Positions 11,207 through 64,000 of a stretch of 64,000 nucleotides of DNA are shown piece by piece; position 1 is the stretch's first letter; each line of letters starts with the position of its first letter. Location of the stretch: assembly GCA_900321655.1 (NCBI GenBank), contig ONWU01000006.1, positions 1 to 64,000 on the forward strand, written 5' to 3'. The stretch comes from an uncultured Bacteroidales bacterium (lineage in GTDB: Bacteria; Bacteroidota; Bacteroidia; Bacteroidales; UBA932). A program made the position numbers and the translations under genes. The notes beneath the pieces were generated by a model. That model made no database searches. It was given only the letters and a program-made list of their open reading frames with translations, and had not been told where the DNA came from.

Positions 11207-11273
11207 TGTGCACTGCTGGATTGAGAGCATTTCGATGGACCACGGCACAATTCTTGACTATGACAACCACGGT

Positions 11274-11879: not shown

Positions 11880-11930
11880 GAATTCAGCGTCCTACCCTGC
11901 CTTTCCATTTCTCACTCGCCTTCCCGCCCG

Positions 11931-12020
11931 GCTCTTAACCCGGTTTTTGGCTCTATTGTGGCGAAGAGCCGCCTTCGGCCCGCTCTTAACTCGATTTTTG
12001 GCTCTATTGTGGCGAAGAGC
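11931..12020. repeat. 51-bp tandem gene-end repeat, two copies, inverted relative to the others
   Basis: Units 11931-11969 and 11982-12020 start 51 bases apart and read GCTCTTAACYCGRTTTTTGG ... ATTGTGGCGAAGAGC on the plus strand, which is the orientation seen downstream of genes at the other loci. The spacer GCCTTCGGC flanked by AAGAGC and GCTCTT makes a strong hairpin. The second unit overlaps the 3' end of the EamA gene and supplies its stop codon. Confidence 0.88.
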
Positions 12021-12930
12021 TGGCGGATGAGCCCGGTTTCAGAATCATAAACACCACGGCGGCCACGCAGATGGCAATTCCAAGGCCCATCTTCCAGGTG
12101 AGGGGCTCTCCAAACAGTGCCGTACCGATAAGGATGGCGGTAAGGGGTTCGAACACGCCCAGGATGGAGGTTTTGGTGGGGCCGATAAAGCGGGACGATA
12201 CCGCCAGGGTGAGCATGGAGAGGATGGTGGGGACGATGGCAAGGCCCACCAGGTTGGCCCAGTCGGCCGGGGTATCCACTCCTTCCACCAGACTGCCTCC
12301 CTGAATGAGACGCATAATGAAAAACAGAACGGTTCCCGTGGCCAGGGCGTAGAAGGTGATGGTGCGTTCTGAGACGTTCTTGATGCGTGAGCTTCGGTTC
12401 ACAATGATCAGGTAATGGGCATAGCTGAGGGCCGACAGCACGGCCAGAAAGATGCCCGGCAGCTGAATATCGGCCCCTTGCGAAGGGCTGGAAAGAAGGA
12501 TGATTCCGCCGAAGGTGGCTACGATGGAAAGCCAGGTCTGCCAGCTGGGATAAAAGTGCAGGAGTACCATGATGAGCGCCACAAACACCGGGTACAGATA
12601 CACCAGAGTGGTGGCAAGGCCCGAAGGAATGAACTCATAGGAAGCGAAAAGGAAGACACTGCTGCCGGCAAACAGCAGTCCCAGAACCACCAGGAGACCC
12701 AGCTCCCGGCGGGAGGTGGAGAGTTTCTCTCCATTGAGGAGCATCCAGATTCCCAGGAGCGTGGCCGACAGGGCATAGCGGAAAAACAGCATCACCAGCA
12801 CCGGCACCCCGCTTTCCATAAGCGGTTTGGCAAAAAGCGGATTGGTACCGTACGAAATGCCCGCCACGATGCCGCACAGGTAGCCGATAAGCCTTCTGTC
12901 CGAAAGGGAATATGAGCGCTTGCTTGTCAT
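12004..12930 (-). CDS. EamA/DMT superfamily transporter
   Basis: This 308-residue inner-membrane protein has about ten membrane segments in two EamA repeats: repeat one from YLCGIVAGISYGTNPLFAKPL to about 145, and repeat two from LPGIFLAVLSALSYAHYLIIV to KMGLGIAICVAAVVFMIL. The conserved second-repeat VFEPLTAILIGTALFGEPLT is present. These carriers export amino acids or metabolites; the substrate is not predictable. The last residues (SASSSPQ) and the TAG stop come from the 39-bp repeat, so the native C-terminus was probably replaced by repeat insertion. Confidence 0.9.
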   Translation of the reverse strand: MTSKRSYSLSDRRLIGYLCGIVAGISYGTNPLFAKPLMESGVPVLVMLFFRYALSATLLGIWMLLNGEKLSTSRRELGLLVVLGLLFAGSSVFLFASYEFIPSGLATTLVYLYPVFVALIMVLLHFYPSWQTWLSIVATFGGIILLSSPSQGADIQLPGIFLAVLSALSYAHYLIIVNRSSRIKNVSERTITFYALATGTVLFFIMRLIQGGSLVEGVDTPADWANLVGLAIVPTILSMLTLAVSSRFIGPTKTSILGVFEPLTAILIGTALFGEPLTWKMGLGIAICVAAVVFMILKPGSSASSSPQ

Positions 12931-12987
12931 CTGATTAAAAGCGAGCGCGAAGTTAGCAAAAAAGTGCCATTAGCGAATGGATTTTAT

Positions 12988-12995
12988 TACCTTTG
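12988..12995 (+). promoter_or_regulatory. -7 box of the low-molecular-weight phosphatase gene
   Basis: TACCTTTG matches the TAnnTTTG consensus exactly and lies 25 bases before the ATG at 13021. Confidence 0.55.
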
Positions 12996-13020
12996 CACTG
13001 CTTTAATAACAAATCTTGCT

Positions 13021-13467
13021 ATGAAAGTTCTCTTCGTCTGCCACGGAAACATCTGCCGAAGCCCGATGGCAGAATTCATCCTCAAGGCTCTGGTAAAAGC
13101 AAAGGGGATGGAAGATCGGTACTATATAGAGTCTGCGGCGGTTTCCACCGAGGAAATCGGCAACCCCATTTATCCGCCGGCCAAGCGCTGCCTTCAGCAG
13201 CACGGCGTGTGGTTCAGTCCGGATAAAAGGGCCCGGCAGGTGAGCCGGGCCGATTACGACCGTTTCGACCGCATCATCTGTATGGATGCATCCAACCTTC
13301 GCCTCATCCGGCGCATCATTCCTTCAGACCCTCAGGGCAAAATCCATCTGATGATGTCCTACACCGGCGTGGGCCGGGACGTAGCAGACCCCTGGTATAC
13401 CGGAGACTTCGAAGAAACCTTCCAGGATCTTCTAGTTGCCTGCGAGGCTATGCTCCATAGGGCTTAA
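13021..13467 (+). CDS. low-molecular-weight protein-tyrosine phosphatase
   Basis: This 148-residue cytoplasmic phosphatase has the P-loop VCHGNICRSPM at the N-terminus, with catalytic Cys7 and Arg13 (CX5R), and the general acid Asp123 in ADPWYTGDFEETF. All catalytic residues are present and the length is normal. In this phylum such enzymes often counteract capsule- or polysaccharide-related tyrosine kinases, but no such kinase is near. The start is set at MKVLFVCHG because the upstream extension is promoter DNA. It converges on the InlB/GLUG gene. Confidence 0.95.
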   Translation: MKVLFVCHGNICRSPMAEFILKALVKAKGMEDRYYIESAAVSTEEIGNPIYPPAKRCLQQHGVWFSPDKRARQVSRADYDRFDRIICMDASNLRLIRRIIPSDPQGKIHLMMSYTGVGRDVADPWYTGDFEETFQDLLVACEAMLHRA

Positions 13468-13495
13468 AACCGGCTTAAGAGCTGGGATGCCTTGC

Positions 13496-14821
13496 CTACT
13501 GGCAGTTCTCCACCGTGTAGGTCATCTTCATTCCGTTGTATTCGAAGAAGGGGACGGAGCCGCTTCCGCAGATGGGGAAGGGGGCATCGGCCTTGTTGTT
13601 TTTCAGGATGGTTTCCGTGATTCCCTGCATCATACCGAATACGGCAAACTGGAAGTTGTATTCGCCAATGAGGCTGCCTACCTGCAGATTTCTGAGCCCG
13701 TCGGCCTGGATGGAGGTGTGGGAGGTGTTTCCGCTCACGATGCCGTAGCGCTCACTTCCGGCCAGACCGCCGGCCACCACCTGGCCCTTTCCGTTATCTC
13801 CGCTCAGGGAGATGCTGCCCTCGGACGTGCTGTCTTTGATGTAGGTGGATCCAGCCTGCAAACCGCCGATGTAGGAAGTATGTTCTCCTTCGGCCTTCTC
13901 TCTGTCGTATTCCAATTTGATTTCAACATGGGCCGTACAACTGTCTGTCTGGCTGTAGGATTCTCCGGCCAGACCGCCCACAAAGAGCATTCCGCCGGCC
14001 TGATTGGCGGCCTTTACCCGGATAGTTCCATCGGCCTGGCAGCCGCGGATTTCTCCGTCCCAAACGCCGGCGATAAGGGCGGCGACGCTAACGTACGTCG
14101 TCTGGGCTTTCCGGTCTATTTCCACGCAGGCGTTGATTCCTTTTATACAGATCCCTTCCAGGATGCTGTGACGGCCTCTGTCCTGTCTCATCATTCCGGA
14201 AACGGCGCCCAGATACATGATGGCACCCGTTACGTTGAAGACAGGCTGGGAAATGACCAGGTCGTGCACTTCGCCGTTGGCAATGGCTCCGAAAAGACCA
14301 CATTGGCCGAAAGGATGGTTCCCTTCGATTTTTAATCCGCTTATGGTGTGTCCGTTGCCGTCCAGGCGACCTTTGAAGGCGTGAACCCACCATTCGGCAT
14401 CGGCATATTCATAATCCGGCTCATACTTGCCGATGGGCTGCCACGGGCCCAGGCCGGAGAGGTCTATGTCGCTGTCCAGCACATACCAGCCGTACAGATC
14501 CTTTCGGATGGCATCCAGTTCCTGTGCGGTGCGGATAGACACGGGTGCGGCCCAGCGGGCATACAAAGTCATAGATTCCTTGACGGCCATCCATTCCACC
14601 GGCGGCTTCATAAATTCCGGCGTTTTAGCTCCGAAGAGCCACTCCTGGGTGCATTCCGGGTCTTTATACCAGCCCGCGAAACGGTATCCCGGTCTCTCCG
14701 GGATGGGCTTCTGGGCCAGGGACATTTCTTTATCCTGGGGTATGGTGACAGGTTGGGGAGCCTTGTTTGAAGTTTCGTAATTGAGGTTAAATTGAACGGT
14801 TAGCAGGTTCTCAGTACTCAT
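13496..14821 (-). CDS. InlB B-repeat and GLUG-motif protein
   Basis: This 441-residue protein has an InlB B-type (Listeria-Bacteroides) repeat at residues 9-92 (VQFNLNYET...RPGYRFAGWYKDPECTQEW...LYARWAAP). GLUG-like turns of a beta-solenoid follow (WQPIGKY, FKGRLDGNGHTISGLKI, GLFGAIANGEVHDLVI, then repeated GG..G...SGN blocks). Such proteins are usually surface adhesins or matrix proteins, yet there is no signal peptide at the chosen start and no other credible start upstream. How it is exported, if at all, is open. Confidence 0.8.
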   Translation of the reverse strand: MSTENLLTVQFNLNYETSNKAPQPVTIPQDKEMSLAQKPIPERPGYRFAGWYKDPECTQEWLFGAKTPEFMKPPVEWMAVKESMTLYARWAAPVSIRTAQELDAIRKDLYGWYVLDSDIDLSGLGPWQPIGKYEPDYEYADAEWWVHAFKGRLDGNGHTISGLKIEGNHPFGQCGLFGAIANGEVHDLVISQPVFNVTGAIMYLGAVSGMMRQDRGRHSILEGICIKGINACVEIDRKAQTTYVSVAALIAGVWDGEIRGCQADGTIRVKAANQAGGMLFVGGLAGESYSQTDSCTAHVEIKLEYDREKAEGEHTSYIGGLQAGSTYIKDSTSEGSISLSGDNGKGQVVAGGLAGSERYGIVSGNTSHTSIQADGLRNLQVGSLIGEYNFQFAVFGMMQGITETILKNNKADAPFPICGSGSVPFFEYNGMKMTYTVENCQ

Positions 14822-14884
14822 AGCTGATTGAATTGGTTATAGACAAAGATAATCATTTTTTCGACATAGTTTTTGCCAACACCA

Positions 14885-14974
14885 GCTCTTCGCCACAATA
14901 CGGCCAAAAATCGAGTTAAGAGCGGGCCGAAGGCGGATCTTCGCCACAATAGAGCCAAAAACCGAGTTAAGAGC
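14885..14974. repeat. 51-bp tandem gene-end repeat, two copies
   Basis: Units 14885-14923 and 14936-14974 start 51 bases apart and read GCTCTTCGCCACAATACGG ... AATCGAGTTAAGAGC. The spacer GGGCCGAAGGCGG with flanking AAGAGC and GATCTT forms a hairpin. They lie downstream of the GH18 gene (minus) and upstream of the InlB/GLUG gene. Confidence 0.88.
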
Positions 14975-15024
14975 CGGGAGAAAAGGAAGACGAAGGGCCT
15001 GGCGGACTACTGCAAGCGCAATGC

Positions 15025-16089
15025 CTACCACAAGTCCGTAATGAGATGAGTGCCGCGGGTGGAAGGGTCCGTTGACGGGACCCAGTCGCAGTGGAATTCC
15101 CACCAGAAAACGCCGCCAAAGCCACCGGACAGCACCCAATCCCGTTTGGCGGCCAAAGACCGGGCGTTTTCCGCCGTGATGAAGGCACTGCCATCCGGGG
15201 AGAAGAAGTACGGGCACTGGGCCTTTTCGTCCCACACCTCCGTCCAGCCTTCCCGCCGGTCCGGCCTATACCCAGGCAGAGCATAGTCCTTCAGCGTTTT
15301 TCCTTCCGGAACAGCCTCGCCGGGCGCAATGCCTTTGTAGCCGTAACCGTAATTGGCCAGGCCGATGTGCAGTTTTGAGGGACGGAACTGACTCCAGTTA
15401 TCGGCATAATTCTTCTGGATCTTGTCCAGCGGAGCGTTGTGGCCGGGCACCTTGCCCCAATCACCGCCGCCCATATCGTAATACATCAAGTTAATCCAAT
15501 CCGCAGCCGCCTCCAGCCGGCGGGCCAGTTCCACGGGATAATTGTGTTCCGTATTGAGGGCCGTGGTGAGCCACATTTTTTTGCTGAAGCGCCGGTTCAG
15601 GGCCTTCCGGAAGGCTTCCATCATTTTCACATGAAGCTCCGGGGTAACCGTATGCTCCCAGTCCAGTTCTATGCCGTCATAGCCGTATCGGTCCACAAAC
15701 GCCGCCGCCATCCGGGCAAAACGCTCCCGGCGAAGGCTGTCCGAAGCAATCTCGATGAACTCCCGGCCGGGGAACGAGCACAGCACAGATGCCCCCACCC
15801 GGTGGGCTGTCTGGATGAAGCGGGGCACCACCCCGGGACGGGCGTACCGGTGTCCGGTGACGTACTTTTTCACCAGAAAGGCCTCATCCCGGTCAAAATC
15901 ATCAGCCTGCCAACGAGGAGGAGCTACCAGATAAAAACAGTCAAAACCCTGCAGATTGGCCTCCGTGATTTCTTCTTCGGAGGCGATGCGGGATTCCATC
16001 ACGTACATCGAATGGGAAAGTTTCCCGCCACAGGCAGTCAAGGCCAGGCAGGCAAGCAAAATCCGGATATGGTGGTAAAGCACGTGCAT
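15025..16089 (-). CDS. GH18 family glycoside hydrolase lipoprotein
   Basis: This 354-residue TIM-barrel enzyme has a lipoprotein signal (MHVLYHHIRILLACLALTAC, Cys20). The GH18 active-site strand reads DGIELDWE at residues 138-145, with catalytic acid Glu145 and Asp143; the first Asp-x-x-Asp position is Glu141 rather than Asp, a common variant. LMYYDMGGGDW and the C-terminal GGFGGVFWWEFHCDW also fit the family. It would cleave beta-1,4-GlcNAc-containing glycans (chitin-like or N-glycan core) at the cell surface. It lies 47 bases after the phosphotransferase operon on the same strand. Confidence 0.92.
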   Translation of the reverse strand: MHVLYHHIRILLACLALTACGGKLSHSMYVMESRIASEEEITEANLQGFDCFYLVAPPRWQADDFDRDEAFLVKKYVTGHRYARPGVVPRFIQTAHRVGASVLCSFPGREFIEIASDSLRRERFARMAAAFVDRYGYDGIELDWEHTVTPELHVKMMEAFRKALNRRFSKKMWLTTALNTEHNYPVELARRLEAAADWINLMYYDMGGGDWGKVPGHNAPLDKIQKNYADNWSQFRPSKLHIGLANYGYGYKGIAPGEAVPEGKTLKDYALPGYRPDRREGWTEVWDEKAQCPYFFSPDGSAFITAENARSLAAKRDWVLSGGFGGVFWWEFHCDWVPSTDPSTRGTHLITDLW

Positions 16090-52598: not shown

Positions 52599-54278
52599 AT
52601 GAAACGAATTTTTGTCCTGGCCCTTACGGCTGCCATCCTGGCCGTATCGGTCCCCGCCTACGCGTGCACCAACCTCATCGTGGGCAAGAAGGCTTCCGCC
52701 GACGGAAGCGTCATCTGCACCTACAACTGCGACGGTTTCGGCTTTGCATCGGCCCTATCCTATTCCCGGCCCGGCAAACACGAGCCCTCAGAGAAAGTAG
52801 CCATCCGCGGCTTTTTCCCCGGCTCCGAGGTCCACTACATAGATCAGGCCCCGTACACCTACGCCGTGGTAGGCCTGATGAATGAAAAGCAGGTATCCAT
52901 CGTGGAAACTACCTGGGGCGGGCGCCGGGAACTCCGCAACCCGGAAGGCTGGCTGGACTATTTCACCCTGATGGACCTGGCCCTGCAGCGATCGGCATCG
53001 GCCCGCGAAGCCATTGCCGTGATGAATCAGCTGGTGAACGAATATGGCTATAATGAGACAGGAGAATCCTTCGCCGTCTGCGACAAGGAGGAAGCCTGGA
53101 TTATGGAGCTCATCGGCAAGGGCGAAGGCCGAAAGGGCGCCGTCTGGGTGGCCCGCCGCGTCCCGGACGACTGCATAACCGCCTACGCCAACTCCAGCCG
53201 CATCCAGCAGTTCCCCCAGGCCAGGAAAATAGATAAAAAACTGGGCTTTTACGTAACGGCCGATGGAGAAACGATGTATTCGGCCGATTGTATCAGTTTT
53301 GCCCGCGAAATGGGGTATTTCACCGGTTCCGACAAGGATTTCAGCTTCCGCGAGGCCTACGGTCCTATGGATTTCGGTAAAATCCGTGCCTGCGAAGCCC
53401 GCGTATGGAGCTTCTTCCGCCACCATTACAATACGGAGGCTATGGATGCCTACCTGCCCTTTATCAACGGGGATATGAGTGAGATAGACCACCTTCCCCT
53501 GTGGATCCGCCCGGAAAAGCCCCTGACTTACAGGGACATCCAGAACGATATGAGAGACCACTACGAGGGCACTGCCTTGGATATGACGGTGGATGTGAGC
53601 GCCGGCCCCTGGGCTTCTCCCTACCGCAACCAGCCCGTGAACTTCAAGGATTCTGAAGGAACCGATATGTTCCGCGAGCGCCCCATCGGCTGCCAGCAGA
53701 GCGGTATGACGATGGTTTGCCGGATGCGCAGCTGGCTCCCCGACGCCCTGGGCGGCATCACCTATTTCAACCTGGACGATGCCACAATGGTAGCCTACGT
53801 GCCCGTTTACTGCGGCATCAACCGAATTCCGGAGCCTTTCCGCGCAGAGAACAACAAGATCACGGAATTTTCCTTCGACAGTGCGTTCTGGATGAACAAC
53901 TGGGTGGCCAATATGGTTTATCCTCGCTGGAGCGCTATGATCGGAGACCTCCGGGAAGCCCAGCAAGAGTTGGAAGACTATTATGAGGCAGACCAGGCCG
54001 AAGTGGAAGCCCAGGCTGCCCAGCTCACCCCCGGAGACCTCTCGGACTATCTCACCGACAAGACTTTTGCTTACACGGACAAAATGATGAATCGCTGGGA
54101 TAAACTGGCCAAGCTTCTGATTGTCAAGCATAACGACCAAATTATGCGTCCCTCCAAGGACGGAGAGATCGTCAGGGGACGCCACACCTCCCCGGCCTAT
54201 TCTCCCGTATTCATTGATGCCGTGAAAGCCCTCACCGGACAGCGGTATGTGAAGCCGGAAGTAAAACCAGCCCGCTAA
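52599..54278 (+). CDS. C69 family dipeptidase
   Basis: This 559-residue Ntn-hydrolase has a signal peptide ending in VPAYA and mature N-terminal Cys23, the catalytic nucleophile, in ACTNLIVGKKASADGS. Later ETWGGR-like and YANSSRIQQF blocks fit PepD-type C69 dipeptidases. It probably acts outside the cytoplasm on dipeptides. It begins 18 bases after guaA and overlaps the convergent histidine kinase gene by 4 bases. Confidence 0.93.
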   Translation: MKRIFVLALTAAILAVSVPAYACTNLIVGKKASADGSVICTYNCDGFGFASALSYSRPGKHEPSEKVAIRGFFPGSEVHYIDQAPYTYAVVGLMNEKQVSIVETTWGGRRELRNPEGWLDYFTLMDLALQRSASAREAIAVMNQLVNEYGYNETGESFAVCDKEEAWIMELIGKGEGRKGAVWVARRVPDDCITAYANSSRIQQFPQARKIDKKLGFYVTADGETMYSADCISFAREMGYFTGSDKDFSFREAYGPMDFGKIRACEARVWSFFRHHYNTEAMDAYLPFINGDMSEIDHLPLWIRPEKPLTYRDIQNDMRDHYEGTALDMTVDVSAGPWASPYRNQPVNFKDSEGTDMFRERPIGCQQSGMTMVCRMRSWLPDALGGITYFNLDDATMVAYVPVYCGINRIPEPFRAENNKITEFSFDSAFWMNNWVANMVYPRWSAMIGDLREAQQELEDYYEADQAEVEAQAAQLTPGDLSDYLTDKTFAYTDKMMNRWDKLAKLLIVKHNDQIMRPSKDGEIVRGRHTSPAYSPVFIDAVKALTGQRYVKPEVKPAR

Positions 54279-56164
54279 GCCTCTTCCCTCGGAATAGTCA
54301 GTACAAAGCGGGCACCTTCTGTGTAGGAGGTGTCCAGCCATACTCTTCCTCCAAGGCTCTCGGCCATCATCCGGCAGATGCTGAGGCCCAGGCCGGCGCC
54401 CTGCTTGTTAACGTCCAGCTTCACAAAGCGGCCGAAGATGCTTTCGGCCTTTCCGGCCGGAATGCCGGGGCCGTGATCCGCTACGGAGAACGTGATGAAG
54501 CCGGGATGCTCTACCAGCGAGCTGGTGAGGACAATGTCCCCCTCCTTGGTATTCTTGCAGGCATTGGTGAGGAAGTTGATGAGGATCTGCTGCACGCGGA
54601 TGCCATCCGTGATGTACCGGGAATCTTCGTCAATGCCCGGCAGAAGCACGATGCGTACGCCGCCCGGAACCCGGCTTTCCACCGCCTTGATGGCCTGCAG
54701 CGTCATCTCATTGAGGTCTGTAGGGGCCATTTCCACGGTATAGCGGCCGTTCTCCATATCCGACAGGCTTAACATATCTCCTATCATCACGGTGAGAAGG
54801 TGCGAGTTGTTGAGCACATAGCCCAGGTACTCTTCCTTCTCCTCCGGCGCCAGGGTGCCGTCCGGCATGCCCAGCAGCTGGGAAAAGCCGATGATGGAAT
54901 TCAGGGGTGTGCGGATCTCGTGGCTCATATTCTGGATGAAGGCCGTCTTCATCAGGTTGGCTTTTTCGGCCAGGTCCCTGGCTTTTTGCATCCTGCGCAT
55001 ACTGCGGACCAGGGTAAGGATAATAAAGCCCATTAGAAGGACGAAGAAACCTATGCCGAACCACATAATCTGGCGCCTGTACGTCTTCCAAAAATTGACA
55101 GGACGGTTCACCACGATGGCATCCGGCGGAATGAGCCGGGTATCCAGGCCGAAGTGTTTCATCGCGTGGTAGTTCAGCGTGGCGGAACCCGTCTGCAGGT
55201 ACATAAAAGAAAGGGAAGAAGGCCGGATACCCCGGTCCAGGACATCCAGGATGTACTGCGTCAGGGTCTCTTTGTACTCATCCACCGAATAACTGTAATA
55301 GCCCACCTGGTTGGGGTGCTTATCCATATCGCTCCAGTACATCGTATACACGGGCGCCAGGGATTCGATGAGGGAAACCGTATTGTGGCGGGTGGAGACA
55401 TTCTCCAGATACCCTTCCCGGATGAGCCAGGAGCTGAAGTAAACGGCCATATCCGGACCGGATTCGCGCTGCAGGATGGCCAGCAAGCGGTCTGTAGAGG
55501 TGTTGGTGGAGGAGATGATGCGGAAGTCAAGATCCGGATGCTGCTGCTGGATATATTCTTCCACCCTCCACTGCCGCTCCTTGGACATATAGTTTTCTCC
55601 GGCCACAAAATAGAGCCTTTTCAGATGGGGCTGAACCGTCAGGATGAGCTCTATGGTGTGCCGGATCATAGGCGGCGCAGAGATAAGGGTCATATTGAAT
55701 CCCCGGGGCCGGAGGGAAGAGACGAAAATGCGACGGGCACCCGGGTCTCCGGGACCGTTGAGCGTATAGTCGATATCGCAGTAATAATCCTGCTCTCCCA
55801 CCAGCATCATCGGGATGCCGGGCCAGAGCTTCTCGACATCTTCGGCAAAATTAAAAGCACTGCCGCCCAGGAGGATGACCAGTCGGGGCCGAAGGGTGCG
55901 CATACGAAGGAGGCTGTCCACCGCCTCCTGCAAGGTTTTTACGTCTTTATGTGCCAGCAGTTGCAGGTGTTCCACGTCCACCCGCAGTTCCGGGCGTTCT
56001 TCCTGCAACTGTTCTATGGGAAAGAGCATCTGCTGCGCCCATTCGCTGGAGGCGGTGTGCGAAGAGAGGATGAAGATATCATCGGCCTTCTGCCACTCCT
56101 GGGCAAAAAGCACGGAGGGAAGCAGCAGGAAAGCCCCGACAAGCCATTTGGTCAAGCCGTTCAT
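54275..56164 (-). CDS. sensor histidine kinase with ABC-substrate-binding-like periplasmic sensor
   Basis: This 629-residue kinase has a signal-like start (MNGLTKWLVGAFLLLPSVLFAQ), a large periplasmic part (25-355) with PRLVILLGGSAFNFAEDV and LKRLYFVAGENY strands recalling ABC substrate-binding proteins, a membrane segment (IMWFGIGFFVLLMGFIIL), then the kinase: MSHEIRTPLNSIIGF (phospho-acceptor His415), NFLTNACKNTKEGD, DHGPGIPAG, GAGLGLSI. It has no receiver domain. The ATG at 56164 is used rather than a TTG upstream. It is the last gene of the signalling operon, 14 bases after the AraC-type gene. Confidence 0.92.
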   Translation of the reverse strand: MNGLTKWLVGAFLLLPSVLFAQEWQKADDIFILSSHTASSEWAQQMLFPIEQLQEERPELRVDVEHLQLLAHKDVKTLQEAVDSLLRMRTLRPRLVILLGGSAFNFAEDVEKLWPGIPMMLVGEQDYYCDIDYTLNGPGDPGARRIFVSSLRPRGFNMTLISAPPMIRHTIELILTVQPHLKRLYFVAGENYMSKERQWRVEEYIQQQHPDLDFRIISSTNTSTDRLLAILQRESGPDMAVYFSSWLIREGYLENVSTRHNTVSLIESLAPVYTMYWSDMDKHPNQVGYYSYSVDEYKETLTQYILDVLDRGIRPSSLSFMYLQTGSATLNYHAMKHFGLDTRLIPPDAIVVNRPVNFWKTYRRQIMWFGIGFFVLLMGFIILTLVRSMRRMQKARDLAEKANLMKTAFIQNMSHEIRTPLNSIIGFSQLLGMPDGTLAPEEKEEYLGYVLNNSHLLTVMIGDMLSLSDMENGRYTVEMAPTDLNEMTLQAIKAVESRVPGGVRIVLLPGIDEDSRYITDGIRVQQILINFLTNACKNTKEGDIVLTSSLVEHPGFITFSVADHGPGIPAGKAESIFGRFVKLDVNKQGAGLGLSICRMMAESLGGRVWLDTSYTEGARFVLTIPREEA

Positions 56165-56178
56165 ACGCAAAAAAATCT

Positions 56179-57495
56179 CTATTTCCGGGAAGCCCAGACC
56201 TTGGGCGTATAGCCCGTTATCCGTTTAAACGTAGAATTGAAGGAGGAGGCGCTCTGGAAGCCGGAGGCACGGGCGATGTCTTCCTGGGAGGCTTCCGAAT
56301 GCATTCTCATATACTGCTGGGCAAAGTCTACCCTCATGATATTGAGAACCTCTGGGAACCCGATTCCATACGTCTGGTTCACCATCTTGGAAATATACGT
56401 CTTGTTGCTGTCCAGCCTTTCGGCCACATCCTGCAGGGTAAGTCCCTGACGCAGGAAAAGGAGTTCGTCCTGCATCAGATGCTGGAAACGGTACACCAGG
56501 GAACCTTCGTCCCAGCTTTTGGACCCGCCAAAAAGGGCCGATGTCAGGGAACCCGTTCCTCCGGAAGCAGAGCCTCCCGCTTCTCCTTCCGCCTGCATGA
56601 CCATCTGAGAGATGACATGTGTAAGAGACTGTCCCTGAAGATTTTCCATCATGTCCATCACCACCTCCTCGGCTACGCGGGACTGACTTTCGCGGGAATA
56701 ATTAAAGCGAAGGGCCGATGTCACATCCTCCAGCGAGATGGACTCCTTGGACCCGAAGAGCGCAAAGAGGCCGAAGAAAAACAGCAGGGTGGACATCAGA
56801 ATCACGATAATCACCGTAACAACGGGATAGAGCCTATAGAAGGGAACGTGCAGATAAACCTTGACGGAAAAGCCAATCAGAATAAGGAGAGAAAGGGTCA
56901 TCTGGATTTCCAGAACCCGCATCTTATACCCCTTGAAAAGAAATCCATACCAATCCGACAACTTGAAATGCTTCTTTCTGATCAGGTATACGCAGTATAC
57001 CAACATGTTCAGGGTTTCCAGCAGCATAACGGCGCGGAAAATGACCACCGTCCATATATAATAGCTTCTCTCCAGACCCACGTAGGAGGCATCCGGATAC
57101 AAAAGGAACCTGGAATGGATTCTCTCCAGCAGCATATCCGTCTGGGCAAGGCCGTTCAGACTGACCAGAATGATACCCGCGGTCAGCAGCATGGCCGGAA
57201 GAAGGATCCAGACAAACAGGACGGGCCGGGGCAGATAAGGCCTTTCCAGCTTGGCAAAATAAAGACAGGTGAGCGGAATGATGGAGGGGGCCGATGCCAG
57301 CACCACCAGGTGGCTGATGGTTTCAGAGCCTGTCAGGGCTTCCAGCAGGATGTCTCCTGCGGCAGCGAAAAAAACCGCCCCCAGCAGGGCCTGCAACAGT
57401 TTATACGCATCCAGGCGGGAGGCCAGGAAAAAATGCACCAACATCCAGAAGGCGCAGATGAGGCCGCAGATGACAAAATAAGGGGTAAGACTCAT
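56179..57495 (-). CDS. membrane-bound AraC-type transcriptional regulator
   Basis: This 438-residue protein has seven or so membrane segments in residues 1-265 (FVICGLICAFWMLVHFFLA through LMSTLLFFFGLFALFG), a linker, and a C-terminal HTH_18 domain: LTLQDVAERLDSNKTYISKM and DIARASGFQSASSFNSTFKR with GYTPKVWA. Such tethered AraC regulators are common in Bacteroidota. It is embedded among two-component parts without a receiver of its own, so how it is switched is open. Its ATG overlaps the stop of the 140-residue gene. Confidence 0.9.
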   Translation of the reverse strand: MSLTPYFVICGLICAFWMLVHFFLASRLDAYKLLQALLGAVFFAAAGDILLEALTGSETISHLVVLASAPSIIPLTCLYFAKLERPYLPRPVLFVWILLPAMLLTAGIILVSLNGLAQTDMLLERIHSRFLLYPDASYVGLERSYYIWTVVIFRAVMLLETLNMLVYCVYLIRKKHFKLSDWYGFLFKGYKMRVLEIQMTLSLLILIGFSVKVYLHVPFYRLYPVVTVIIVILMSTLLFFFGLFALFGSKESISLEDVTSALRFNYSRESQSRVAEEVVMDMMENLQGQSLTHVISQMVMQAEGEAGGSASGGTGSLTSALFGGSKSWDEGSLVYRFQHLMQDELLFLRQGLTLQDVAERLDSNKTYISKMVNQTYGIGFPEVLNIMRVDFAQQYMRMHSEASQEDIARASGFQSASSFNSTFKRITGYTPKVWASRK

Positions 57496-57914
57496 ATGCG
57501 CACTCCTCCCTGCGCTTTCAGCTCCTTATCCACCTTCTTTTTCTCTTCCATCAGAAGGGACAGCAGCCAGTCGCTCTGCTCCTGGCTTAATCCCAGATCC
57601 CGGCAGGCGCTGTCATAGCGGTTGATCACCGCTTCCTGGTACCGGTGGTACATCATAGACCTTTTGATCTCTTCCTCGATGGTTTCGTGCTCTATTTCGT
57701 AGCTTTCCTTGTAATACTTCCTGTACACCCTCTCCGAAGAATAGCTGAGGCTATAATAGAAAAGGCCGAAGGAGAGAACCACCACCCCGGCGATTCCCCA
57801 TCCCAGGGGAATTCTCTGGAAAAGGGCCAGCATGGAAAGGCCTGCCCCTATGACAAACAGTAACAGGGCGTGAAGTTCGTGTTTATGGTAACGCAGCAGA
57901 GAGGAAAGTTTCAT
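57492..57914 (-). CDS. small membrane protein with cytoplasmic helical tail
   Basis: This 140-residue protein has two membrane segments (ELHALLLFVIGAGLSMLAL and GIAGVVVLSFGLFYYSLSY) and a charged helical tail (EHETIEEEIKRSMMYHRYQE ... LLSLLMEEKKKVDKELK). No domain was recognised. It overlaps its neighbours on both sides by ATGA, between the TPR sensor and AraC genes, so it may be a coupling subunit of the signalling cluster. Confidence 0.75.
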   Translation of the reverse strand: MKLSSLLRYHKHELHALLLFVIGAGLSMLALFQRIPLGWGIAGVVVLSFGLFYYSLSYSSERVYRKYYKESYEIEHETIEEEIKRSMMYHRYQEAVINRYDSACRDLGLSQEQSDWLLSLLMEEKKKVDKELKAQGGVRI

Positions 57915-59218
57915 AACTCGGTAGAATTGTACTCTTTATTCTGTAATAACTTGATCTTCAAAGCATTCTCGGCTTCCTTAGCATTGAGGGCCTGCTGGAA
58001 AGCCCGGCGGGCCATCAGCATCGAGTTCTGCTGGGCCTTCATCCTCTCCAGATTGTCCCTCACCCTCCACTGATGCACCAGCACGGCCAGAAAAGCCGCA
58101 ACGAACATCAAAAAGAAGCCCATCAGCATTGCAAACTGATTGTGGGCCTTCATTCTCTGGGCCTCCTCCCTCAGCTGGGCATTGTCCATTTCGGCATCCA
58201 GGATGGCCACGTCCTCGTTCTGCACCTTGATGAAGAGGGAATCCTTTTCCTCCATCAGGTTAAACAGGCAGTCGTAGGCCTTGTCGTAATCTCCCAGGCC
58301 GGCATACAGGTGATACTGCTGCTCCAGCCGGTTCCTTCGTGTGAGGAGAGACTGGGAACGGACCAGCGCTTCCTCCAGCTGCCCCTGCGATCGGAGATAC
58401 GTAATATCCAGCTGGGTACGGTCTTCGATATCCGTCTGCAGAGGATAAAGAGGGTCTTCCTGCAGCAGCTGGTAGCAGGTGTTGAAGGCCGGAAGGTCTC
58501 CCTGGGCATAATAGATGAGCGCCCGTGTTATCAAAACCTTCTGTTCAAGGCCCGGGAAGAAATCCTGGTAGGAGGCGGCTTCCGTGCAGGACTGATGAGC
58601 CTGAGTAAACTGGCCCATCTTCATCTGTTCCTGCGCCAGCAGGATAAACAGATTGGGAAGTTCCTGTTCAGCCCTGGCTTCCCGGCAAAAGCGCACGGCC
58701 TCTTCCAGGTTTTGCCCGGCCAGGTAAGAATTGTTCCTGTAGCTTTGGATAAGGCCGATGACGCGGTAAGCATACATCCGGCCCAGCGGATTCCTCTCTT
58801 CCAGGGAAAGCCGCTCCATGGCACGGGCTTCCAGCACCGCCTCGGACACGCGGTCCGCCTTCAGGAGGAACTCGTTGTACTGGTCCCAGACATCAAAATA
58901 GAAATCCCTCAGATCTTTCCTCTTTCCCAAAAGGCCCTTGAGTTCTGCCGCAATGACGTCCATCCTTTCGTATTCCCCCCTTTCATACCGCACGGGCATC
59001 TCCAGGGAGAGGGCCAGGCACTTGTAGCGGAGATTTCCCTTCCTCACGCCCACCTGGTACAGGGAATCTGCCAGAGCAAGATTGGCGGGATTATAGGGTT
59101 GCATCCGGGCCTGGGCATACAAAAGGAAGGTGGGCTGGTCCACCTTCAGACGGTTCACAATCTGAGCCTGGGCCGCCAGACCCAGGGACAAGCACAAAAT
59201 GACGAGGAAGCGGCGCAC
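57911..59218 (-). CDS. TPR-type sensor protein without a kinase domain
   Basis: This 435-residue protein has a signal peptide (MRRFLVILCLSLGLAAQAQ), about 300 residues of TPR-like helices in the periplasm (ALADSLYQVGVRKGNLRYKC, YAGLGDYDKAYDCLFNLMEE), a membrane segment (FAMLMGFFLMFVAAFLAVLV) and a short coiled-coil tail. This is the layout of a TPR hybrid sensor kinase, cut off where the kinase would begin. The stop is not at an obvious break, so this is probably its natural form. A lone receiver gene lies 2 bases upstream. Confidence 0.82.
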   Translation of the reverse strand: MRRFLVILCLSLGLAAQAQIVNRLKVDQPTFLLYAQARMQPYNPANLALADSLYQVGVRKGNLRYKCLALSLEMPVRYERGEYERMDVIAAELKGLLGKRKDLRDFYFDVWDQYNEFLLKADRVSEAVLEARAMERLSLEERNPLGRMYAYRVIGLIQSYRNNSYLAGQNLEEAVRFCREARAEQELPNLFILLAQEQMKMGQFTQAHQSCTEAASYQDFFPGLEQKVLITRALIYYAQGDLPAFNTCYQLLQEDPLYPLQTDIEDRTQLDITYLRSQGQLEEALVRSQSLLTRRNRLEQQYHLYAGLGDYDKAYDCLFNLMEEKDSLFIKVQNEDVAILDAEMDNAQLREEAQRMKAHNQFAMLMGFFLMFVAAFLAVLVHQWRVRDNLERMKAQQNSMLMARRAFQQALNAKEAENALKIKLLQNKEYNSTEL

Positions 59219-59220
59219 GG

Positions 59221-59643
59221 CTACTGGGCTTTCGCAGACTGCACCATAGAGAGTTGCGTCACAACGCTGGTGAGCAGCCTTTCCATAATGATGGGCTTCA
59301 TAATATAGTCGTTGGCTCCCATATTGAAGCCCTTGGAGACATCTTCCCCGGAAGTAAGGGCCGTCAGGATAACAATGCGGATGTCTGCCGTATCCGGATT
59401 GGCGCGAAGCCGGCGGATTACTTCAAAGCCGTCAATTCCGGGCATCATCAGATCCAGCAGGATCAGGTCCGGCTTGGAACGGGCAATGGAATCCAGGGCT
59501 TCCTGACCGCCGGAGGCCGTTTCCATCTGGAAATTGAAACGGGACAGCATCTTTTTCACCAGAACCAGGTTCAGGGGGATATCATCCACTGCCAGCACGC
59601 GGCAGGAGGAAAAATCGTGTTCTTGTGCGTAAACAGGGATCAT
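59221..59643 (-). CDS. stand-alone response-regulator receiver
   Basis: This 140-residue protein is a single receiver domain with VLAVDDIPLN (Asp20, Asp21), phospho-acceptor Asp64 in ILLDLMMPGIDG, Thr94 in ILTALTSG and Lys116 in YIMKPI. No output domain is attached, so it may relay phosphate to a partner or act by protein contact. The nearby kinase at 54275 is its likely donor. It sits 11 bases after the fimbrillin-like lipoprotein gene and just ahead of the TPR sensor. Confidence 0.92.
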   Translation of the reverse strand: MIPVYAQEHDFSSCRVLAVDDIPLNLVLVKKMLSRFNFQMETASGGQEALDSIARSKPDLILLDLMMPGIDGFEVIRRLRANPDTADIRIVILTALTSGEDVSKGFNMGANDYIMKPIIMERLLTSVVTQLSMVQSAKAQ

Positions 59644-59654
59644 ATCAGTAAAAA

Positions 59655-60740
59655 TTAAAAATCTTGGTTACTCTCATAGATTTTGGTTTCCCAGCCGCTG
59701 ATGCCGGCCGAAAAATCGATGGGCCTGTAAATGGAACTCAGATCCAGGCCGATATGGAAGGTATACTGCTTGCCGGGCACCATCGTGTTACCGGGAAGCA
59801 CGCCATATATCATATATTTGAACACCTGGTCCTGCAGGGGGGCGTACTGCTCCCCGTCAATGGAAAAACCGTCCACATCAAAATGGACTTCCACATACTG
59901 CACACCCAGATCTATCTGATCCGGTACGGCATAGAAACGGTGACTGTCTTCTACAAAGCCCACCAGGGCATCCTTACCCACAAAACGCTTGCCTTCCCTT
60001 CCCACCCCAACCGGAGCATCTCCTTCAAACACCACCACGTCCCGGTAATAGCCCTGGTAATTCCAGAAACCCCGGCTCTGGAGAATATCATTCACAAAGA
60101 CACCGGCCGAAGCCACGTGCGTCGCAACCATCTTTCGAAGGTGAATAAGGCCCTGCAGCTCCGGATAAGGCGTGATATCGCACACCCGGAACCCGATATC
60201 ATTGGTAATGTGACTGAACTCCAGCGGAAGCGTATTCATAAGGCTGAGGGAACGCTCCACGGTTTTGGACACCAGCGGACCGGCCTCGGTTTCTGAAAGC
60301 TGATAGGGAATGGAATAAGCTTCGTTGGATTTTTCGTAGGTGACAGTACGGACGTGGGGATAATAGGCGCTGAAAAGAAGAGGATTCTCAATTTTCAGAA
60401 GGCCACCCTCCAAATAGGCTTCATACTTACCTGTACGGCCACTTGTAACAGCAATGTTATCAATTAGCAGAGTGTGGGAATCCGACTCGATGCCAATCAG
60501 GGAAAAAGGTCTGGACATATCCATCGTGGCCAGCATGTTGGAGACAGAGGCCATAGAATCCTCCAGAGCACGGGTAACGAGATTGTTATCAGCTAGTTTT
60601 ACTCCGTCCCGGGTCACAGAAATATCAAAACCCAGCATCTTGGAAGGCAGAATCGACTCCCCCTCTCCCTGATTCACAGCTACGCAAGCGGGAAAAAGAA
60701 GCCCACCTAAGAGAAAAACAGCTAAAATCTTACTCTTCAT
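59655..60740 (-). CDS. fimbrillin-family-like lipoprotein
   Basis: This 361-residue lipoprotein (MKSKILAVFLLGGLLFPAC) has a fimbrillin-like composition: LGFDISVTRDGVKLADN and KIENPLLFSAYYPHVRT strands, a long beta domain and GVLPGNTMVPGKQYTFHIGL near the end. It probably sits at the surface, or in the periplasm as an anchor or tip protein. It is the first gene of the operon of signalling parts and is divergent from the fimbrial operon at 61105, so it may report on fimbria assembly. Confidence 0.75.
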   Translation of the reverse strand: MKSKILAVFLLGGLLFPACVAVNQGEGESILPSKMLGFDISVTRDGVKLADNNLVTRALEDSMASVSNMLATMDMSRPFSLIGIESDSHTLLIDNIAVTSGRTGKYEAYLEGGLLKIENPLLFSAYYPHVRTVTYEKSNEAYSIPYQLSETEAGPLVSKTVERSLSLMNTLPLEFSHITNDIGFRVCDITPYPELQGLIHLRKMVATHVASAGVFVNDILQSRGFWNYQGYYRDVVVFEGDAPVGVGREGKRFVGKDALVGFVEDSHRFYAVPDQIDLGVQYVEVHFDVDGFSIDGEQYAPLQDQVFKYMIYGVLPGNTMVPGKQYTFHIGLDLSSIYRPIDFSAGISGWETKIYESNQDF

Positions 60741-60756: not shown

Positions 60757-60787
60757 CAAATATAGAAAAAAATATCTGAATCAGCAA
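60757..60787 (-). promoter_or_regulatory. promoter of the lipoprotein/signalling operon
   Basis: On the minus strand TTG (60787-60785), 20 bases, then TATATTTG (60764-60757), a full consensus pair. The lipoprotein start follows 16 bases later. Confidence 0.65.
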
Positions 60788-60881: not shown

Positions 60882-61022
60882 CCCCTTCTGCTTAAGATGT
60901 TTCAAAAATCAAAAACGACCATCAAGGAAAGGCAAAAATTATTTCTGAATCAAAAATCAGGAATTGGAAAGTCTTGCTGAAAATAAATATAAATAAATTA
61001 TTTTAGTTTGAAAAATTATCCC

Positions 61023-61030
61023 TAAATTTG
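61023..61030 (+). promoter_or_regulatory. -7 box of the fimbrial operon
   Basis: TAAATTTG, exact TAnnTTTG, 74 bases upstream of the DUF3575 gene start. No clear -33 motif at the usual distance. Confidence 0.45.
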
Positions 61031-61104
61031 AATCAGAAAAAATAGGAAAATAGTAGCGACAAAATTGCTAACACGCTGATAGCCAGCTGCATAAAACATA
61101 ATTA

Positions 61105-62400
61105 GTGGTTAGGAACAAATTCATTTCGGGGGTACTTTCAGCCCTGGTAAGCCTGAATTTCTGCACGTATGCGCACGCGCAGGAGCATTTCAGACTGCAT
61201 TTTGCCCGTAACGAAAGTGAATTTTTCAACACCCTTCTGGACAACGAAAAAACGCTGGATTCTCTCCAAAAATGGGTAAAAAACACAACTCCTGAGAGAA
61301 TTTTGTCCATTGATGTTTCGGTTTTTGCATCCCCGGAAGGCCCCAAAGAATTTAATGAAGAGCTCTGTAGAGAAAGAGCAGAGGAATTTAACACCGCTGT
61401 CCTCCCCTACTTCAAAGGAGCAGAGGACAAAGTGAACATCCACATAGGAGGAGAGGCCTGGGAAGAGCTCAGGATGCGCGTTGCCAACGACAAAAAATTA
61501 AGACCGGAATACATTGAACAGATTCTCGGCATTCTGGACGACAAGAGCATAGACAACGAAACCCGCAAGCAGCACATTGCCACCCGGATCAGCGAGCACA
61601 ATTACCGTTTCCTCCTCTGGGAGCATTACAGACTCCTCCGTTATTACGACATTTTCATCACCGTCAAGCCGGAGCAGACAGAAAAGGCAATAGAACAAGT
61701 AGAACTGGAATCAACGGAGGAAAAACCCGTAAATGAGGTTGAAACAGCAGTTGAAGCTCCAGTTATAGAAGAGAAAAAAGAGAAAGTAGAGGAGAGAGAG
61801 ACAAAGCAGGAGCGGGCTTTTATGGCCATCAGCACCAACCTCCCCTACGATATCACCTACATCCCCGGTTACGGCATCACCAGCATTCCCAGCTTCACGC
61901 TGGAGATTATGCCCGGAAACAGCCGCTGGACGCTGGGAGCAGACGTGGAATGGCCTATGTGGCAGCATCCGGAGGCCCACCGGTATTTCCAGATCAATAA
62001 CATCACCCTCTGGACCAGAAGATATTTCCGCTCCAGGCAGGAGCCCCGCAAAAAAGGCTGGTATCTGATGGGAAATATCAACGCAGCCCGCTACGGCATT
62101 GGCTTTAACGCCAACAAGGGCTGGGAAGGAGAAGGAATAGGCGCATCGCTCGGAGGAGGATACCGCCTGCCCCTCGGGAAATACTTCTTCCTGGATATGG
62201 GCATTGCCGCCGGCGCCTTCTACAGCGCCTACGACCCTTACGTCTGGGGCAACGACGGCTCCAACTGGTATTACTACGACTACAACGGAAATCCGGAAGC
62301 CTTTGTCAGACGCAACCAGCGCCTGTGGTGGGTGGGTCCCACCCGCGTGTGGCTTTCCATCGGCTTTGATTTCTGGAAAAAAGACAGGAGAACGAAGTGA
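61105..62400 (+). CDS. DUF3575 domain protein (fimbrial operon)
   Basis: This 431-residue exported protein starts with a GTG and a signal peptide ending in YAHAQ. Residues 30-190 carry an alpha/beta part with charged helices, 200-235 a Glu/Lys-rich linker, and 240-431 the DUF3575 beta-barrel: MAISTNLPYDITYIPGYGIT, FTLEIMPGNSRWTLGADVEW, AARYGIGFNANKGWEG and VWLSIGFDFWK. DUF3575 proteins accompany FimA/Mfa1-type fimbriae in Bacteroidales. Its TGA overlaps the next ATG. Confidence 0.82.
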   Translation: MVRNKFISGVLSALVSLNFCTYAHAQEHFRLHFARNESEFFNTLLDNEKTLDSLQKWVKNTTPERILSIDVSVFASPEGPKEFNEELCRERAEEFNTAVLPYFKGAEDKVNIHIGGEAWEELRMRVANDKKLRPEYIEQILGILDDKSIDNETRKQHIATRISEHNYRFLLWEHYRLLRYYDIFITVKPEQTEKAIEQVELESTEEKPVNEVETAVEAPVIEEKKEKVEERETKQERAFMAISTNLPYDITYIPGYGITSIPSFTLEIMPGNSRWTLGADVEWPMWQHPEAHRYFQINNITLWTRRYFRSRQEPRKKGWYLMGNINAARYGIGFNANKGWEGEGIGASLGGGYRLPLGKYFFLDMGIAAGAFYSAYDPYVWGNDGSNWYYYDYNGNPEAFVRRNQRLWWVGPTRVWLSIGFDFWKKDRRTK

Positions 62401-63527
62401 TGCAGGGATACAGGCATATTTTTGTTCTTCTGGCCTTCTGCATCCAGGCCAGCGCCTGCAGCATCCGTCCGGAGCTGCACCTGCACCAGCCCATCCATAC
62501 CCAGATTGTTCTGGAAACGGAGGTGAACCTGAACCTGATGTGGCAGGTGGAATGGGAAACCCGCTGGGAGTTCCCCTGGAACGAGAATGTTCTGGGGCCG
62601 CTTGGCTACCAGGAACCCGCCAGCATCAGCGCCCACGTGTACTCGCTGGACGAAAACGGAAATCACAAGTCTCATTTCACGCAGAATTTCTACGGTACCA
62701 CGGCCAATATGCCCGTTACCGTAGGAACTTACGACCTCCTTTTCCACAACAACGATTCCGAGACGCTGCTTTTCAGCTCGGAAAACGAGCTGGGAACCAT
62801 TCACTGCTCAACGCGCGTGATTTCCAGCGGTCTGAAGGAATCTCATCAGGTGTTAACCGCCCTGCAAAAGGAAGAGGATACCAAGGCCGAGGAGGAAATG
62901 CCCGGCGAGCCGGTAACCCTGATGCCGGACGGACTGTTTGTGCTGTACGACCAGAACGAGCAGATTAGCGGAAACCTGGAGGACTACGAGTATATCGACG
63001 GGAAGTATGTGCTTCGTATCCAGGGAGTTATGAATCCAGCTACGTATATTCACCTTTTCCAGATCCATCTTCTTAACAATGAGGGCCGTGTGGCGGGAAG
63101 TAATGGCGGGGCTGCCCTGACGGGTGTGGCCGGTGGGGTGGATCTGGATACGCGCGTGTCCGCGCGCACGAGTGTGTGCGTGCCTGCGGATGTATATTAT
63201 GATCGCGCGAGGGAGCTGATGGCCGCCCGCTTTGTGAGTTTTGGTATTCCGGGATGCAATCCTTATGATGGGGAGAGTCTGGAGACGGCTCCGCAGGGGA
63301 ATCACTTCCTGGTGATCAATGTTAGCTATTCCAACGGAAACTGGAAGAATATCCGGGTGGATGTTACCAATGCGCTCCGAGCCCTCCCCCTGGGAGGACT
63401 CATAGACCTCACGCTGGATGTGAATGACTTTCCTCCGGAACAGGGGGATACCGGCGGGGGTGGCGGTTTTGATGCCCTCATTGATGAGTGGGACGAGGAG
63501 CAGGGTGAAACGACAATTATATTTTAA
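62400..63527 (+). CDS. DUF5119 domain protein (fimbrial operon)
   Basis: This 375-residue protein has a lipoprotein-like signal (MQGYRHIFVLLAFCIQASAC). The body matches DUF5119: RPELHLHQPIHTQIVLETEV, YDLLFHNNDSETLLFS, and a later GGAALTGVAGGVDLDTRVSA block. Proteins of this kind usually sit next to DUF3575 and fimbrillin genes and may anchor or nucleate fimbriae. The start was moved to the ATG in the ATGA-type overlap. A low-complexity Gly run (GDTGGGGGFD) is near the C-terminus. Confidence 0.82.
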   Translation: MQGYRHIFVLLAFCIQASACSIRPELHLHQPIHTQIVLETEVNLNLMWQVEWETRWEFPWNENVLGPLGYQEPASISAHVYSLDENGNHKSHFTQNFYGTTANMPVTVGTYDLLFHNNDSETLLFSSENELGTIHCSTRVISSGLKESHQVLTALQKEEDTKAEEEMPGEPVTLMPDGLFVLYDQNEQISGNLEDYEYIDGKYVLRIQGVMNPATYIHLFQIHLLNNEGRVAGSNGGAALTGVAGGVDLDTRVSARTSVCVPADVYYDRARELMAARFVSFGIPGCNPYDGESLETAPQGNHFLVINVSYSNGNWKNIRVDVTNALRALPLGGLIDLTLDVNDFPPEQGDTGGGGGFDALIDEWDEEQGETTIIF

Positions 63528-63567: not shown

Positions 63568-64000
63568 ATGAGTATGAAAAAAGCAGTACTCCTTGCTGCA
63601 GCGGCCCTCAGCCTGGTCGCCTGCGGAAAAACCTACCTGGACGAGCCCGTGGCTCAGAATTCCATCGGTTTCAACACCTGGACTAACAACCTTACCAAAG
63701 CCCGTGTACAGGGTTCGAACGAGTTTACTGACGGTGACACCTTTGCCGTGTATGGTTACAAGTCTATGTCTGACAATACCGGAGCCAACACCGTTTTCAA
63801 CGGCGTTACAGTCAAGACTACAGATGGCACGACGTGGACCTACGATACTCCCCGCTTCTGGGACTCCAATTATGACAAGTACACCTTCTTCGCCGTTTCT
63901 CCGGCATCTGCCGTTACCGGCGGAACCGTGGACGCCCAGACCGGTGAAATTACAAGTGCTTCCTTCACCTTCGACGGAAAAAACAACGATATCCTGGTAG
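63568..64000 (+). CDS. fimbrillin family protein (partial, runs off the end)
   Basis: The first 144 residues show a lipoprotein signal (MKKAVLLAAAALSLVAC) and a fimbrillin-type start: EPVAQNSIGFNTWTNNLTKA, FTDGDTFAVYGYKSMSD, TWTYDTPRFWDSNYDKYTFF, AVSPAS. This is probably the major or minor fimbria subunit of the operon beginning at 61105. The 3' part is outside the window. Start is either the ATG at 63568 or at 63574. Confidence 0.88.
   Translation, partial: MSMKKAVLLAAAALSLVACGKTYLDEPVAQNSIGFNTWTNNLTKARVQGSNEFTDGDTFAVYGYKSMSDNTGANTVFNGVTVKTTDGTTWTYDTPRFWDSNYDKYTFFAVSPASAVTGGTVDAQTGEITSASFTFDGKNNDILV

Follow-up and report, generated by a model that had tools for sequence, protein, structure and literature searches.

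Do six genes that lie opposite a fimbrial operon, and that distribute a sensor, a kinase, a receiver and a DNA-binding output over separate chains, form one signalling system for that operon? The question is raised by a 64,000-nucleotide stretch (hereafter the window) of an uncultured Bacteroidales bacterium (GenBank assembly GCA_900321655.1, contig ONWU01000006.1, our contig C31; 2.1 Mb genome, 82% complete). Read from 60740 down to 54275 on the minus strand, the block encodes a fimbrillin-like lipoprotein (LIPO), a lone receiver (REC), a TPR protein (TPR), a small membrane protein (SMP), a membrane AraC regulator (MARAC) and a histidine kinase, designated HK(abc) to distinguish it from kinases with a TPR-kinase-like N-terminus as judged by profile, HK(tpr). 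We consider it rather probable that the block specifies a split FimS-like sensory relay that is dedicated to a single fimbrial locus and whose components are separate proteins. What speaks for this in the sequence is the set of parts, their conservation, the linkage to fimbrial genes, a remote similarity between TPR and the sensor half of TPR kinases, and an intact receiver site.

All six co-directed reading frames that the first-pass annotation had placed at 54275..60740 were present there. The intergenic gaps, given in that annotation as overlaps or spacings of 2-14 bases, measured 11, 2, -4, -4 and 14 bases in order, the last being 14 bases to the kinase ATG and 8 to a TTG. A domain scan likewise agreed with the domains first assigned to the six products. 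LIPO (59655..60740; minus strand, as for all six genes) is a lipoprotein of 361 aa with lipid-box Cys19. REC (59221..59643; 140 aa; PF00072, E 1.7e-27) is a stand-alone receiver with Asp20, Asp21, Asp64 and Lys116. TPR (57911..59218; 435 aa) has a signal stretch, a single membrane helix, a short tail and no kinase; it is presumably periplasmic. SMP (57492..57914; 140 aa) combines two membrane helices with a helical hairpin, and no Pfam or NCBIfam family was found for it. In MARAC (56179..57495; 438 aa) an AraC-type DNA-binding domain follows seven predicted membrane helices. HK(abc) (54275..56170) joins an N-terminal domain of about 345 aa, of unrecognised family and presumably periplasmic, to HisKA and HATPase_c, with no receiver. 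The histidine first proposed as its phosphorylation site, His415, is numbered correctly if translation starts at the ATG (629 aa).

The operon opposite the block, described from the outset as fimbrial, does carry fimbrial families. It starts with a DUF3575 protein (61105..62400, plus strand; E 2.4e-10), followed by a DUF5119 protein (62397..63527, plus; E 2e-10) and a first Mfa_like_1 fimbrillin (63568..64000, plus; E 7.2e-28) that is cut by the window end. On the contig the operon continues to about position 72853 with a second Mfa_like_1 protein, an Mfa2-like protein just under the cut-off, and a 1555-aa protein that matches DUF4906 weakly.

To place the block among its relatives, gene order was read in loci L031-L047 and L080-L199, which comprise LIPO loci and SMP relatives; genes were called with a codon-bias caller trained on ten window genes, which leaves start positions and some of the short genes uncertain. 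The exact order LIPO-REC-TPR-SMP-MARAC-HK(abc) recurred in three further genomes (L115, L117 and L125; the contigs of L115 and L117 also appear as L169 and L158, respectively), in each case opposite a DUF3575 operon and with 63-88% protein identity over aligned stretches. Conservation of the block, the first check that the annotation had proposed, was thus found, and chance clustering of the six genes is ruled out by the exact order in these genomes. On the far side of the block a C69-family dipeptidase gene (52599-54278) is convergent with the kinase gene, overlapping it by 4 bases. Its counterparts in L115, L117 and L125 are 79-88% identical and, because it is conserved beside the block, these loci and the window probably share the same chromosomal site.

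Beyond these close relatives the genes fall into two modules. The first is LIPO-MARAC, often with a REC of its own and divergent from DUF3575. The 58 loci read for it contain 56 LIPO-labelled genes, three of which are paralogues inside fimbrial operons, and some of the loci end at contig edges; an AraC gene follows LIPO in 42 of the 56 cases, and in 31 LIPO and DUF3575 are immediate divergent neighbours. The second runs TPR kinase-REC-TPR-SMP. TPR directly precedes SMP in 81/81 distinct SMP loci; within seven genes of SMP a REC occurs in 78 and a TPR kinase in 63 of the 81, with a kinase of HK(abc) type in 6. The two modules are joined in the order LIPO-MARAC-REC-TPR-SMP in L031. Since they stand apart in many relatives and the window REC belongs to the TPR-SMP clade described below, the window operon is best read as a merger, in which REC-TPR-SMP would have been placed into a LIPO-MARAC unit and HK(abc) added. 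As a side observation on the second module, a gene for a 284-295 aa product lies between REC and TPR in L122, L132, L139, L142 and L150; in L132 the product was identified as Lgt (prolipoprotein diacylglyceryl transferase, E 1.1e-67), which attaches the lipid to lipoproteins.

The modules also meet around fimbrial operons. LIPO and SMP lie on one contig in 35 of the 49 genomes that have both and on different contigs in 14. Their distance is 0.4-6 kb in 17 genomes and 15-36 kb in 18, and in all 18 far cases, where the intervening stretch was read, a DUF3575-started operon lies in between, flanked on its 5' side by LIPO-MARAC and on its 3' side by the SMP cassette. The cassette may be on either strand and sometimes follows a few other genes, most in G227. 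A Pfam scan of eight far-end proteins from three loci gave FimA or Mfa_like_1 in 3/8 and nothing or an uninformative domain in 5/8; for the other far-case operons the fimbrial label rests on the DUF3575 start and on the sizes and order of the genes. MARAC also occurs beside DUF3575 operons without an adjacent LIPO (L037, L038, L043 and L046).

If the block is a relay, its likely receptor is the TPR protein, which the first-pass annotation had called a sensor without a kinase. Its repeats scored just under the Pfam cut-offs (TPR_1, 27.2 against 27.8 bits; TPR_2, 25.2 against 27). A profile comparison with the sensor half of TPR kinases supported the call (E 3e-9, probability 96%, 14% identity over 383 columns), the alignment including the membrane helix and extending to the kinase start. 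A search of the TPR profile against the PDB gave no match at E 0.1. TPR is hence a probable distant homologue of the sensor half; we grade the kinship no higher because both are helical repeat proteins.

The known system closest to this arrangement is FimS-FimR of Porphyromonas gingivalis. According to excerpts of a recent account, the FimS sensor is a periplasmic TPR domain in which mutations change FimA fimbriation, and the system shares with ours a periplasmic TPR sensor, a histidine kinase domain and control of a fimbrillin cluster (PMC11053733); for our locus the corresponding evidence is linkage. One kinase and one transcriptional regulator are replaced here by a kinase-less TPR protein, a stand-alone receiver, SMP and a membrane AraC protein. 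The fusion of TPR sensor and kinase that characterises FimS is absent from the window, in which HK(abc) has another sensor and TPR no kinase, whereas the usual TPR kinase of the SMP cassette does have the TPR-kinase layout. FimR binds DNA through its own domain; the 140-aa REC is a receiver only and has no such output. The NCBIfam FimS model scored 15.8 bits on TPR against a cut-off of 600 and was not among the best 25 NCBIfam matches of three TPR kinases scanned. The TPR kinases of L104 and L091, in a Pfam scan, carried HisKA and HATPase_c without a receiver. The sensor part of HK(abc) was found in six distinct loci, four with the window gene order at 63-68% identity and two in other settings (L126, 38%; L152, 31%). 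G353 and G261, which have the exact window gene order, keep an unlinked TPR kinase.

The second system to be compared is the hybrid two-component system of Bacteroides, which like our block has a kinase and a receiver in one pathway (excerpts of PMC11253607). It is a single chain, whereas here the functions are divided among three genes, with seven membrane helices on the AraC chain. The annotation had described the block as a hybrid system dispersed over several proteins. In one conserved unit tied to a fimbrial operon, the kinase, the receiver, the sensor and the DNA-binding output do lie on separate chains; the description as a dispersed hybrid is not supported in that form, given that the two modules sit apart in many relatives and given the placement of REC. 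Asp64, the residue first named as the phosphorylation site, is the right one and, together with Asp20, Asp21 and Lys116, is invariant in 127/127 receivers of these loci. In a tree of these receivers, built from few columns and with bootstrap not settled and many forks open, the window REC fell into a starred clade (100/99) of 75 rows, of which 71 adjoin TPR-SMP, three adjoin both TPR-SMP and an AraC gene, and one is of another kind. All 30 receivers beside an AraC gene only lie outside this clade, as does that of L091, which adjoins both. This placement, and the stand-alone state of REC in relatives, rule out that REC is a fragment of a split hybrid kinase. By definition REC is a single-domain response regulator, a receiver only with an intact phosphorylation site. 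Such proteins act by protein contact, one of them binding a phosphoglycosyl transferase (excerpts of PMC12802240); REC shares with them the lack of an output domain and differs in being kept beside the TPR-SMP membrane pair.

A functional version of the hybrid idea would have HK(abc) phosphorylate REC, and REC directly switch the AraC protein, the domains of one regulator being split over three genes. The AraC-type DNA-binding domain is indeed a part of Bacteroides hybrid systems, and in loci of the window type a single tightly spaced run of genes supplies the kinase, receiver and AraC domains. Moreover, in L034 a hybrid two-component regulator (11350-15246; propeller, kinase, receiver and AraC) follows LIPO-MARAC-REC, and L039 has one at 11225-15145 as judged by size and similarity, which looks like the arrival of a third kinase type at the locus. 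This direct route nevertheless appears rather unlikely to us: the window REC belongs to the TPR-SMP clade and not to the AraC-linked receivers, the AraC protein is itself a seven-helix membrane protein, and an HK(abc) gene was present in 0/36 stretches with AraC beside REC (some contigs counted twice). Taken together, the block belongs neither to the FimS-FimR nor to the hybrid two-component class, since it lacks their defining features.

We then asked how far the two modules are inherited together. Among 300 genomes of the genus the LIPO profile identified 51 strong orthologues; 55 had any match, and the four left out were weak matches of an inside-operon type (G037, G077), a broken gene (G051) and a contig-end fragment with a stop (G292). 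In G051 two short matching pieces lie at L039:9026-9505, and its SMP match is partial too. The SMP profile matched 58 of the 300. None of the other genomes drawn from the order had either (197 searched for LIPO and 246 for SMP, each with one of the genus), and 246 other genomes of the phylum held no SMP reading frame, two weak matches having internal stops. A scan of named genomes gave 98 SMP relatives, of which 80 were kept; all but one are titled Bacteroidales or Bacteroidia, and many of the titles name ruminant stomach samples. The exception, L161, is titled Fibrobacter; its receivers group with those of the Bacteroidales genome G200, and the contig is probably mis-binned or mislabelled.

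SMP was present in 49/51 strong-LIPO genomes. Fisher's test gave 2e-44 for this association; it ignores kinship and was not relied on. Instead, SMP was mapped on an rpoB tree of 45 genomes, built by a quick method without bootstrap and covering part of the genus. Of 80 genomes queried 53 matched, the window genome giving no match; G335, G163, G170, G279, G027 and G244 were left out as fragments or double copies, and the short, misplaced rows G085 and G315 were dropped. SMP required 9 changes on this tree, of which 7 are imposed by starred branches and set the minimum number of gains or losses; after shuffling of the labels the mean was 13.7, and 1 or 2 of 500 shuffles were as low. SMP is therefore patchily distributed, clustered yet not confined to one clade, and the LIPO and SMP labels agreed in 42/44 genomes. 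Co-occurrence as the effect of one clade is ruled out by the at least 7 SMP gains or losses. Together, these data suggest that the co-inherited signalling set probably controls the fimbria gene cluster.

Several observations weigh against a single relay. A strong LIPO match is missing in 9/58 SMP genomes, and eight LIPO-SMP clusters (L104, L107, L108, L110, L112, L113, L114 and L116, the last starting at a contig end) lack both an AraC gene in the run and a DUF3575 gene in the stretch read. A match to the TPR-kinase sensor half was found in 70/300 genomes of the genus, a count that may include kinase-less copies such as T402; these cover 55/58 SMP genomes (missing in G000, G028 and G230), and 15 of the 70 have no SMP. 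TPR itself matched T402, another kinase-less protein that is present in some loci and is a close copy of the sensor half (E 4e-109), only at E 0.008 and probability 5%. No TPR kinase was found in the window genome, which is 82% complete. Finally, the HK(abc) type is rare (6 distinct loci), and therefore the window kinase and REC need not be partners. Some of these points, along with the separation of the modules in many genomes, fit two unrelated regulators at one locus: LIPO and the AraC protein would control the fimbriae, while kinase, REC, TPR and SMP would control something else and travel along, as the nine SMP genomes lacking a strong LIPO match and the eight clusters lacking DUF3575 in the stretch read might indicate. 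We regard this as unlikely, because in loci that lack an AraC gene it is LIPO that stands at the head of the SMP cassette, the window lineage has REC-TPR-SMP between LIPO and the AraC gene in one operon, and LIPO and SMP co-occur (49/51) despite the repeated SMP gains or losses. The relay thus remains our preferred reading.

The relay would need a DNA-binding output, and MARAC is the candidate. It contains HTH_18 (E 2.1e-13) and seven hydrophobic stretches; with a DNA-binding domain and membrane helices in one chain, it is a transmembrane transcription regulator. Members of this class, some of which control pilin or fimbria expression, likewise carry the DNA-binding domain on a membrane protein; the available part of the source makes no mention of AraC and does not describe a seven-helix AraC form beside a receiver (PMC10269533).

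Regulatory DNA of two kinds was found between the block and the fimbrial operon. The Bacteroidetes -7 consensus is TAnnTTTG, and a predicted promoter element of this type, TATATTTG, lies at 60757..60764 on the minus strand, ending 16 bases before the LIPO start codon. The same 8-mer occurs upstream of LIPO in L115, L117 and L031, with TACTTTTG in L125. Between LIPO and DUF3575, a conserved non-coding block (60920..61031, unstranded) is 76% identical to L115 (E 2e-18), and overlapping pieces are 71% identical in L117 and 72% in L125. It contains the motif TTTTCnGnAAGAnTTTCnGATTCTTGATT, a candidate operator. The pattern was written from the window, L115, L117 and L125, and matches there by construction; of 45 other DUF3575-side regions, L103, L046 and L096 matched at 25, 25 and 24 of 31 positions. 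These three lie 4-6 above the highest-scoring of 60 single-base shuffles and L032 lies 3 above it, while the other regions were within two of the best shuffle or below it (L031, 18 vs 20). We treat the motif as a lead. The sequence points to MARAC as its possible binder because L046 has the motif and MARAC, and no LIPO.

LIPO had been described as a fimbrillin-family lipoprotein heading the block. The window protein matched Mfa_like_1 weakly (E 0.0095; 16.4 bits, below the cut-off of 27), and 9/10 aligned relatives matched it at E <=0.01, the best at 4.7e-10, in line with that description. Cys19 is invariant in 10/10 aligned members, and so is Thr56, which is followed by Lys or Arg in all ten; such a Thr-Lys/Arg site is a feature of fimbrillin precursors. 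The structure model is mostly beta, and we make no claim about the fold because its mean pLDDT is only 50. These properties, a fimbrillin-like family, a lipid box and a Thr-Lys/Arg site, would also suit an ordinary structural, anchor or tip subunit that is co-transcribed with the regulators and has no part in signalling. Weaker relatives occur as subunit genes inside fimbrial operons (L036:15242-16327, L099 and L032), a possible source of LIPO, and in the nearest loci the fimbrial subunits are 30 to 72% identical, some L125 shaft subunits (71-72%) being nearly as conserved as LIPO (78%). In the more distant L031, L034 and L045, however, LIPO retains 53-60% identity while the fimbrial subunits show 25-40% or no match, and LIPO stays with the regulators where no DUF3575 gene is near. 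A purely structural role is therefore conceivable, though we think it doubtful. LIPO thus resembles the FimA/Mfa fimbrillins in being a lipoprotein with Mfa_like_1 matches and differs from them in being encoded with regulators and, in distant loci, in being better conserved than the shaft subunits. Such conservation is as expected for a protein with fixed partners, and it would be compatible with a structural role too.

The least familiar part of the relay is SMP. No Pfam or NCBIfam family scored over its cut-off (NfeD_membrane, 17.1 bits vs 26; DUF4284, 15.3 vs 27), and the best PDB match (E 0.03, isocitrate dehydrogenase) gave no solved relative. The model (mean pLDDT 71, pTM 0.33) shows two membrane helices and a helical hairpin that is presumably cytoplasmic. 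The hairpin sequence is nearly fixed, with His76, Asp106 and Asp129 in 81/81 distinct loci. As to its kinship, profile comparisons matched SMP neither to the dimerisation region of TPR kinases, which rejects it as a relative of their dimerisation helix pair, nor to the TPR tail, which rejects it as a relative of that segment. No Pfam histidine phosphotransfer or dimerisation family matched SMP, the likeness lying in the helical hairpin of the model. That SMP represents a new class of membrane phosphorelay protein, its hairpin serving as a docking or phospho-accepting partner of REC and joining separate kinase, receptor and output chains, is a long shot.

In the mechanism that we infer, which covers the signal, the pairing of kinase and receiver, the route from REC to the AraC protein and the TPR ligand, the kinase would sense a periplasmic cue and phosphorylate REC. 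TPR, a kinase-less receptor, and SMP would form a membrane complex whose conserved inner parts may bind the kinase or REC. REC, having no output domain, would pass on its state by protein contact, and MARAC would be the DNA-binding output, acting on the conserved block between the two operons. LIPO might report subunit supply or assembly, or might be the ligand of the TPR sensor.

A search of open-licence papers found none describing this gene set, and the available part of a 2024 account states that the signal received by FimS was still unknown (PMC11053733). In the system described here the TPR receptor, the fimbrillin-like lipoprotein and the lone receiver are separate, co-inherited genes, and each step can therefore be tested singly, from the ligand of the TPR domain to the feedback of fimbrial subunits on their own transcription. 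SMP, a sharply conserved family so far known from one genus, would provide a handle on the contact by which a receiver without an output may reach a membrane-bound transcription factor.

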